A stretch of DNA of 64,000 nt from Schumannella luteola (GTDB lineage: Bacteria > Actinomycetota > Actinomycetes > Actinomycetales > Microbacteriaceae). How positions within the stretch are numbered: the first letter of the stretch is position 1; each line of letters starts with the position of its first letter. The stretch is from the NCBI RefSeq assembly GCF_013408685.1, contig NZ_JACBZY010000001.1, positions 2,728,001-2,792,000 on the forward strand. Reading direction: 5' to 3'. The position numbers were made by a program, and so were the translations under genes. This document shows positions 47,502 to 50,960 of the stretch, piece after piece. The notes beneath the pieces were generated by a model. It ran no database searches. It had not been told where the DNA came from and saw nothing but the letters and a program-made list of their open reading frames with translations.

Positions 47502-48827
<1,326 letters not shown>

Positions 48828-48840
48828 GGGGCACGCGAGC

Positions 48841-50211
48841 GTGCGGACGCTGCTCACCATCTGGGCGGCGAAGCTCGCGGCGCTGGCTCTCCGGCTGACG
48901 GGACGTGCGGGAACGCACGTCCCGGGCCGGATCGCGCGGCGGCTCCACCCGGGCATCATCGGCGCGGTGCGTCATCCCGCGCGGGTCGTGGCGGTGACCG
49001 GCACGAACGGCAAGACGACGGTGTCGAACCTGCTCGCCGAAGCACTGGAGGCTGAGGGCCTGCGTGTCGCGAGCAACCGGATCGGGTCGAACCTCGCCGC
49101 CGGCGTCGCGATGACCCTGATCGACGCGGTGAGCTGGACGGGCCGCTCGCGCGCCGATGTCGCGATCATCGAGATGGATGAGCGCTCGGCTCGGCTGATC
49201 CTGCCGGGCCTGAAGCCCGACGTCCTCGCCTGCACGAACCTGACGCGCGATTCCATCAAGCGCAACGCGCATCCGGCCTACATCGCCTGGCTGGTCTCGT
49301 CGGCGGTCGCGCCGTCGACGCACCTGGTGCTCAACGCCGACGATCTCATCGCGGCCTCGATCGGCGGCGACGAGAACCGTCGCACCTTCTTCGCGGTCGA
49401 CCGCCAGCCGGGCGACGGCACGACGCCCTCGGGCGCGGCCGTGGATGTCGCGATCTGCCCGGTCTGCGATCACCCGCTGAGCTGGGAGTACTGGCGCTTC
49501 AACCACATCGGCAAGGCGTTCTGCCCCAACTGCGGCTTCCGCGCCCCTGAGGCCGCCTATCGCGCCCGGGACGTGGACGCGGCGGCCCGTCAGCTCACGC
49601 TCGACCTCGACGGCGAGGGGCGCCGCGCGCACCTCATCAACGACAACATCGTCAACGTCTACAACGAGATCGCCGTCGCCGCGACGCTCGACCAGCTGGC
49701 CGTGCCGCGCGACCGCATCGTCGCCGCCTTCGAGCGGATCGCCCCGCCGACGACGCGCTTCGCCTCCGAACAGGTCGGCGGCACCACGATCGTGCGCCAG
49801 CTGACTAAGGGCCTGGTGGGCGTGGCGTGCTCGCGCGCCTTCCAGTACGTCGCCGCGTTCCCCGGACGCAAGTCGGTCGTGCTCAACATCGACGAGGTCA
49901 GCGAGCGCACCACCGACGTCGAGAACACCGCCTGGACCTACGACGCCGACTACGACTACCTCGCGTCCGACGAGATCGAGCAGGTCGTCGTCGGGGGAGT
50001 GCGGCGTTACGACCAGGCGCTGCGGCTGGCGATCGCGGGGGTCGACCCTGCGCGCATCGTGACCGTCGCCGACGAGATCTCGGGCGCCGACCTCGTGGAT
50101 GTCGAGGGGATGGCGGCCGTCGCCAACCTGCACAGCGTGCACAACGCCGTCATCACCGGCACCCCCGTGCAGAGCCGTCTTCGCAGTCGACTCGGCGGGA
50201 GCGCCTCGTGA
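48841..50211 (+). CDS. murT: Mur ligase family protein, MurT
   Basis: 456 residues from a GTG. In staphylococci and other Gram-positives MurT with GatD amidates the D-Glu alpha-carboxyl of lipid II. The ATP site is intact: VTGTNGKTTVSN (Lys 58), then DVAIIEMDERSA. The MurT-specific zinc ribbon is present (C206PVC209 and C228PNC231). The C-terminal DUF1727 domain contains RTTDVENTAWTYDADYDYL, aligned with the usual ADGxDxSWxWDxDFE region and keeping the first Asp. So the ligase looks functional. It sits between sigA and a gatD homologue, overlapping the latter by 4 nt. Confidence 0.92.
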   Translation: MRTLLTIWAAKLAALALRLTGRAGTHVPGRIARRLHPGIIGAVRHPARVVAVTGTNGKTTVSNLLAEALEAEGLRVASNRIGSNLAAGVAMTLIDAVSWTGRSRADVAIIEMDERSARLILPGLKPDVLACTNLTRDSIKRNAHPAYIAWLVSSAVAPSTHLVLNADDLIAASIGGDENRRTFFAVDRQPGDGTTPSGAAVDVAICPVCDHPLSWEYWRFNHIGKAFCPNCGFRAPEAAYRARDVDAAARQLTLDLDGEGRRAHLINDNIVNVYNEIAVAATLDQLAVPRDRIVAAFERIAPPTTRFASEQVGGTTIVRQLTKGLVGVACSRAFQYVAAFPGRKSVVLNIDEVSERTTDVENTAWTYDADYDYLASDEIEQVVVGGVRRYDQALRLAIAGVDPARIVTVADEISGADLVDVEGMAAVANLHSVHNAVITGTPVQSRLRSRLGGSAS

Positions 50212-50960
50212 GCCTGACGATCGAGATGCTGTTCCCCGAGATCGCGAATCTGCACGGTGACAACGCGAACATCGACTACCTCGCGCAATGCCGGCCCGAC
50301 GCCCGCGTCGTGCGCACGGGGCTGACCGACCGCCCGGCGTTCGTCGACGGCCCGGTCGACCTGCTCTATCTGGGCCCGCTGACCGAGCGCGGGCAGCTGC
50401 TCGCGATCCAGCACCTGCGTCCGCACGTCGAGCGCCTCGTCGAGTTGATCGACGCCGGCACCCCCGTGCTCTTCACCCACAACGCGCTCGAGGTGCTCGG
50501 CACGCGCATCCGCAACGACGAGATGGGCTATGACGAGGCGGGTCTCGGCGTGCTCGAACTGGAGTCGACGCTCTCGATGCTCGGCCGCTACAGCGGCAAG
50601 GTGATGGGCGTCGTGCCGGAGGCGGGCTCCGAGCATCCGCTCGTCGGCTACAAGTCGCAGTTCTCGATGGTGACCGCGGCCGACTCGCTGCCGGGGTTCC
50701 TCACCGCCGAGCGCGGCATCGGCCGCAACACGCACACGGCCGTCGAGGGCGTGCGTCGCGGCGGGCTGCTCGGCACCTCGCTGATCGGCCCCGTGCTCGT
50801 CAACAACCCGCACTTCACCCGGGCGCTGCTCGGGAAGCTCGACCCGCACACCGAGCCGACGCTCGCCCACGAGTCGCTGGCTCTCGCCGCCTACGACCAG
50901 CGACTCGCCGACTTCCGCGACGAGCGCCGCTGGCATCCCTTCGAGACGGTGCGCCCGTAG
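50208..50960 (+). CDS. GatD-like glutamine amidotransferase fold, catalytically dead
   Basis: 250 residues, GTG overlapping the murT stop. Overall length, context and landmarks (TIEMLFPEIANLHGDNANI, LYLGPLTERGQ, IDAGTPVL, LLGTSLIGPVL) identify it as GatD. The glutaminase triad is gone: where GatD has the nucleophile in a CGGYQxLG loop this has THNALEVLG (position 91 is His), and where the catalytic His lies in GTYLHGP this has GTSLIGP (Ile 193). It should not release ammonia from glutamine. It is probably retained as a structural or altered-specificity partner of MurT. Confidence 0.85.
   Translation: MSLTIEMLFPEIANLHGDNANIDYLAQCRPDARVVRTGLTDRPAFVDGPVDLLYLGPLTERGQLLAIQHLRPHVERLVELIDAGTPVLFTHNALEVLGTRIRNDEMGYDEAGLGVLELESTLSMLGRYSGKVMGVVPEAGSEHPLVGYKSQFSMVTAADSLPGFLTAERGIGRNTHTAVEGVRRGGLLGTSLIGPVLVNNPHFTRALLGKLDPHTEPTLAHESLALAAYDQRLADFRDERRWHPFETVRP

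Follow-up and report, generated by a model that had tools for sequence, protein, structure and literature searches.

The locus described here raises the question of what a MurT-GatD pair can do once its glutaminase half has lost the catalytic residues, in a family of bacteria, the Microbacteriaceae, whose peptidoglycan is of group B. Walls of this group have been described for about fifty years, and our searches of a largely non-subscription literature brought up no report of an enzyme that links D-Glu to the group B bridge, of MurT or GatD in Microbacteriaceae walls, or of a dead GatD. The DNA that we analysed (the window) is a stretch of 64,000 nucleotides from Schumannella luteola. A sequence-only reading of it had proposed that MurT and a pseudo-GatD may have been repurposed to couple an amino acid, or free ammonia, to activated D-Glu and so initiate the group B cross-link. 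The survey reported below partly supports that proposal and gives a broader picture than was first thought, in which two separately dead MurT lineages and a CofE-like enzyme occupy one slot behind rpoD.

A MurT with a glutaminase-dead GatD in the window

The murT gene (48841..50211, + strand) encodes a Mur ligase-type subunit of 456 aa that matches S. aureus MurT with an E value of 5e-43. It starts 13 bases after the stop codon of rpoD/sigA (47502..48827, +), the constant upstream neighbour of this slot, and it overlaps gatD (50208..50960, +; 250 aa) by the four bases GTGA. The next gene, which is convergent with the pair, encodes an ATP-grasp protein (PF14397; 50968..51969, - strand) and is a possible candidate for a partner of the pair. 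A scan of the window locus for promoters and terminators found none.

We observed that MurT is intact, as the sequence-only reading had it, with regard to its P-loop (GTNGKTT, residues 54-60, 49000..49020, +) and its Cys4 zinc ribbon (CPVC...CPNC, residues 206-231, with C206, C209, C228 and C231; 49456..49533, +). Both Mur_ligase_M and MurT_C scored above their Pfam cut-offs, and the counterparts of the ATP-site residues T60, E108 and N267 are retained. However, Asn362 (49924..49926, +) aligns with S. aureus MurT Asp349, the residue that completes the proposed triad in the S. aureus complex (PMC6113224, excerpt).

The claim that GatD is without both glutaminase residues was borne out by alignment of a profile of 11 GatDs of the window type (type III, below) with S. 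aureus GatD (6gs2/5n9m; E 3e-12). His91 (50478-50480, +) stands in the Cys94 position, within a former nucleophile loop that now reads FTHNALEVLG (50472..50501, +) and was located by alignment and by the motifs of relatives, and Ile193 (50784-50786, +) stands in the His189 position, within GTSLIGP (50772..50792, +). The proposed glutaminase triad of Cys94, His189 and MurT Asp349 is lost in the window pair. The Asp19 position of GatD is retained, as is Arg127 (50586..50588, +), the equivalent of the Arg128 that sequesters glutamine in S. aureus GatD and whose replacement by Ala abolishes glutaminase activity there (PMC5871853, excerpt). An AlphaFold model of the window GatD (pLDDT 83.9) had 6gs2_A as its top match (Foldseek E 5.5e-16, TM 0.76). 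The protein fell below the Pfam cut-off for the CobB/CobQ-like class I glutamine amidotransferases (PF07685; 20.9 bits vs 27). On a scale for which no active pair was scored as a control, MurT missed the NCBIfam equivalog cut-offs (161.9 and 152.7 bits vs 800), and so did GatD (35.1 and 22.2 bits vs 450 and 400). Decay of gatD as a pseudogene or through a frameshift was rejected, given that the motifs are conserved across 11 type III genomes.

The window pair thus has in common with the lipid II isoglutaminyl synthase (S. aureus 6gs2/7q8e, S. pneumoniae 6fqb, S. pyogenes 9sq9) the 2 coupled genes, the Cys4-ribbon MurT, the GatD fold, the ATP site and Arg128, and differs from it in that Cys94, His189 and MurT Asp349 are all replaced and in its location behind rpoD. 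The Schumannella luteola genome has one MurT_C match and 6 Mur_ligase_M proteins. A cluster at 3.05 Mb contains 4 of them; the remaining 2 are MurT itself and a protein at 3.33 Mb. We took the 5 others as MurC-F and FolC, from location and order and not by a named search, and because of this assignment MurT is the sole spare Mur-type ligase; a second spare ligase was rejected on the same grounds.

Occurrence of dead GatD within and outside the family

We surveyed 199 genomes of the family designated f1, taken as Microbacteriaceae; group B status was assigned by family membership, and wall types are known for few of the genomes surveyed. MurT_C matches were present in 140 of the 199. A profile of 30 type II MurTs separated 164 genomes with MurT (among them G035, counted from a partial match only) from 35 without, in which the best profile match was no better than 1e-13 and fits other Mur ligases. 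Among the genomes with MurT, we read the GatD of 90, a sample that leans towards active proteins because reading favoured strong MurT_C matches. We observed dead GatD only in 67 of these genomes, dead together with active GatD in 5, and active GatD only in 18. The dead GatDs numbered 74, spread over 72 genomes, and their Cys column held G (41), A (13), H (10), S (6), N (2), T (1) or Q (1). His189 was retained in 39 and Arg128 in 69 of the 74.

Most of these pairs fall into 2 types. Type II MurTs have no Cys4 ribbon, and their P-loop is mostly GSNGKST or GSSGKST; type III, to which the window belongs, retains the ribbon and occurred in 11 of the 199 genomes, one of which (G155) carried type II as well but has 5% contamination. 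There were also 2 divergent dead types, L110 and L019. The altered motifs LFT[HQ]NA and GTSL[ILV]GP were present in 10 family genomes besides the window, and in 23 of 23 loci of a type III GatD scan that drew partly on the same genomes.

Outside the family, 75 of the 78 GatDs that were read were active. All 21 from loci of the same order were so, and 60 further regions yielded 57 GatDs, 54 active and 3 dead; the count omits L273 (Cys present, His column not read) and L282 and L285 (no GatD found). The 3 dead proteins belong to family f55 (L309 and L316) and family f34 (L318), which are probably Coriobacteriia and whose walls are presumed to be of group A; the G+C content of f55, 64%, is compatible with Collinsella (PMC6113628, excerpt). 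Confinement of dead pairs to Microbacteriaceae was accordingly rejected. The window GatD shared 41, 39 and 35% identity with these 3 proteins (E 5e-54 to 4e-42), as against an E value of 3e-14 at best with type II and active GatDs, and type III may have been acquired by Microbacteriaceae through transfer.

The expectation that loss of Cys and His would track with group B walls, and would be missing from group A relatives, therefore held as an enrichment, a dead pair being present in 72 of 90 family genomes vs 3 of 78 GatDs outside. The tracking was incomplete: 18 family genomes have active GatD only, 7 have neither MurT nor the alternative system described below, and the 3 dead proteins from outside come from presumed group A families.

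Two losses in the MurT tree

A quick tree of 88 MurT rows required 2 changes between active and dead states. The type II MurTs formed a single clade (29 rows, SH-aLRT 100) next to active MurTs, which come from both the order and the family. A second dead clade (12 rows, SH-aLRT 97) contained the window, L110, L019, L254 and the 3 rows from f55 and f34. Long branches make the placement of L110, L083, L019 and L087 uncertain. Both dead lineages sit behind rpoD.

Exchange of MurT and a CofE-like protein behind rpoD

In 49 type II loci, MurT was located behind rpoD on the same strand, and rpoD was upstream in 21 of the 23 type III scan loci, of the others L254 being located elsewhere and L258 cut off. 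Strong matches to a CofE-like protein (PF01996, E below 1e-110) were observed in 28 of the 199 family genomes, and all 28 of these standalone genes were in genomes without MurT, among the 35 such genomes. By coordinates, 27 of the 28 genes lie beside rpoD, the exception, G040, being ended by a contig end. Of 20 regions that were fetched, 15 had the CofE-like gene in the slot; the other 5 were G040 (again at the contig end), G012, G014, G017 and G045. Weaker CofE-like matches occurred alongside MurT in G049, G112 and G134. Neither MurT nor the CofE-like protein was found in 7 family genomes (G017, G045, G047, G057, G108, G110 and G159). The gene after rpoD is parE in 4 of these (G017, G047, G057 and G110) and in 4 genomes with active GatD only (G003, G012, G014 and G021).

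MurT and the CofE-like protein were found as alternative states within single genera (g7, g9, g53, g54, g68, g70, g73, g77 and g78). On an RpoD tree, type II and CofE-like states switched 15 times; since no more than 8 of the 76 inner branches of this tree were starred and its long branches meet, our counting of switches rests on the 9 mixed genera instead.

CofE of F420 synthesis (coenzyme F420-0:L-glutamate ligase; PF01996; 7uld, 2g9i, 2phn) ligates an amino acid onto a carboxylate, and it is a relative of this enzyme that occupies the rpoD slot; CofE and MurT have unrelated folds. The one slot protein that we tested was above the PF01996 cut-off, missed the NCBIfam CofE cut-off (31.8 vs 180.65) and matched the solved CofE structures weakly (E 0.0017), so that F420 synthesis is not implied for it. 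The in-place exchange of MurT with such a ligase, as read from the gene content, supports an amide-ligase role that would have no need of a glutaminase.

In the same order outside the family, CofE-like matches were present in 21 genomes and MurT in 77, and the two sets do not overlap. Here the match (for example in L329-L340) forms the C-terminal part of open frames of 809-1016 aa, and in the 2 fusions scanned both Asn_synthase and GATase_7 domains were above cut-off. Of 8 fusion N-termini that were read, 5 had MCGI.G with Cys2, L334 had MSGISG, with Ser in place of Cys2, and 2 were without such a motif, so that the fusion amidotransferase is not always intact. As judged from predicted proteins, then, group A relatives have either MurT with an active GatD or a CofE-like protein fused to an amidotransferase, and Microbacteriaceae mostly have either MurT with a dead GatD or the CofE-like protein alone. 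This parallel, to which L334 and the genomes with active GatD only are exceptions, is in our view the strongest argument for the reading that follows.

Proposed role of the pair and alternatives

Alongside what was observed, namely the residue losses, the retained ATP site and Arg, the 2 losses in the tree and the exchange in the same slot, we infer the substrate, the amino-acid donor and the bridge role of the pair as follows. With a probability of about 0.52, the pair couples the D-Glu alpha-carboxyl to an amino acid and in this way starts the group B interpeptide bridge. It would be an amide ligase descended from the lipid II isoglutaminyl synthase and disconnected from glutamine. By homology, and with its ATP site intact, MurT would phosphorylate the D-Glu alpha-carboxyl in the lipid-linked precursor. 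The pseudo-GatD, judged at the residue level, would yield no ammonia and would stay as a structural half of the enzyme, perhaps still holding the amino acid through Arg127, and attack on the activated carboxyl by the amino group of glycine or of a diamino acid would form the first bond of the bridge. A wider proposal, which we put forward tentatively and at somewhat less than even odds, is that the rpoD slot houses the missing starter of the group B bridge in Microbacteriaceae, with 3 solutions of separate origin: 2 independently dead MurT lineages whose old glutamine site holds an amino acid, and a CofE-like ligase that stands alone here but has group A relatives that sit in asparagine-synthase-type proteins.

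Several observations speak for an amino-acid ligase that starts the bridge, among them the retention of Arg128 in most dead GatDs, the 2 losses in the tree with both lineages behind rpoD, the amidotransferase fusions of the CofE-like protein outside the family, and the lack of another spare Mur-type ligase in the Schumannella luteola genome. The triad is lost while the ATP-site residues stay, and the exchange between MurT and the CofE-like protein within the family is without exception among strong matches (28/28). Also, a type II dead pair (G009/L092) is carried by Rhodoluna lacicola, which has a closed genome of 1 430 433 bp and a proven B2beta wall that gives Gly-D-Glu and D-Ala-D-Dab peptides (PMC4156110, excerpt). 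A MurT-type protein that works without a glutaminase has a precedent in the archaeal MurT-like enzymes of pseudomurein makers (PMC11915815, excerpt); these are without GatD, whereas the window pair retains a GatD, though a dead one. Against the bridge reading stand the 3 dead pairs of f55 and f34, the 3 genomes in which a weaker CofE-like match accompanies MurT, and Clavibacter, in which D-Dab connects D-Glu and D-Ala and D-Glu is also reported as amidated (PMC9603630, excerpt). The rarity of EctB at the locus (below) and the fusions whose amidotransferase is not intact count against it as well. Moreover, if the whole family is of group B, the pair is not the sole route, because 18 genomes have active GatD only and 7 have neither system; these 25 would need another route.

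The main rival is that MurT amidates D-Glu with free ammonia, as an ammonia-dependent isoglutaminyl synthase for which the pseudo-GatD is a mere scaffold. S. aureus MurT-GatD does take ammonia at pH 8.5, GatD still being required then (PMC6085368, excerpt), and the Clavibacter muropeptides with amidated D-Glu are as this rival would have them. We nonetheless consider it unlikely: by established chemistry, amidated D-Glu is unable to carry a group B bridge, 5 family genomes carry an active pair besides the dead one, and an amino-acid donor would account more readily for the exchange with a CofE-like ligase that stands alone. Slightly less likely again is that the pair acts on another carboxyl or polymer, elsewhere in the wall or in forming a glycine side substituent such as that documented on the D-Glu alpha-carboxyl of Intrasporangium (PMC3035309, excerpt). 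That example shows that the modification exists in group A walls, and the dead pairs in presumed group A families and the location of the L254 pair between genes for a class A PBP and MurJ point the same way; on the other side, the substrate-side motifs of MurT are retained and the dead pairs are strongly concentrated in a group B family.

That the pair is a decaying or regulatory leftover with no catalytic role would be in keeping with the residue losses taken alone and with the 35 family genomes that manage without MurT. It is nevertheless very improbable, for 11 type III genomes share the ATP site, the gene overlap and the altered loop, and as many as 72 genomes still carry dead GatDs, 74 in total. 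Most improbable of all would be a cryptic glutaminase with a different nucleophile. His91 can be imagined in that part, and the Asp19 position is retained, but 54 of the 74 dead GatDs have Gly or Ala in the Cys column, and the C94S and C94G forms of the S. aureus protein were inactive (PMC6113224, excerpt). An amino-acid ligase that starts the group B bridge thus remains our preferred reading. Concrete candidates can now be named for the group B bridge bond, relatives exchange them in place, and the question has become testable; the window pair also shows that a glutamine-dependent ligase is able to lose its glutaminase and yet retain the dead partner.

Other features of the loci

An ATP-grasp gene (PF14397) was present at 7 of 22 rpoD-linked type III loci, 12 of 15 CofE-like loci and one of 49 type II loci. 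EctB scored above its cut-off in 37 of the 199 genomes, the Schumannella luteola genome having no match at the threshold used. A gene for an EctB-type diaminobutyrate transaminase was located at the rpoD/CofE-like locus only in G018 (L205:1439-2764), where ectB lies between rpoD and the CofE-like gene, and in G053 (L195:1-1182), and on account of these 2 results we no longer used EctB to indicate a bridge with diaminobutyrate.

At L110:3107-5902, the divergent murT-gatD pair, whose GatD is dead, has a CofE-like gene immediately upstream. The type III pair of L254 (66-9776), a metagenome-assembled genome labelled Propionibacteriaceae, is found in the gene order class A PBP, ATP-grasp, murT, gatD, MurJ; its presence in this genome may reflect transfer or mis-binning. 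In L316:1179-3431, L307 and L315, MurT and GatD form a single open frame, about 750 aa long; the GatD part is dead in L316, and Cys is present in L307 and L315.

Alanine-racemase-like genes were observed at 20 of 49 type II loci and 8 of 15 CofE-like loci. In L100, L111, L116 and L122, such a gene has a YGHG/WGHG motif without the usual Lys (ADLRADAYGHG, IDVRADAYGHG, IDLSSEAWGHG), and in L100, L116 and L122 it is a second gene that adjoins a Lys-bearing copy. As far as the motifs indicate, the 2 copies possibly form a pair of an active and an inactive racemase.
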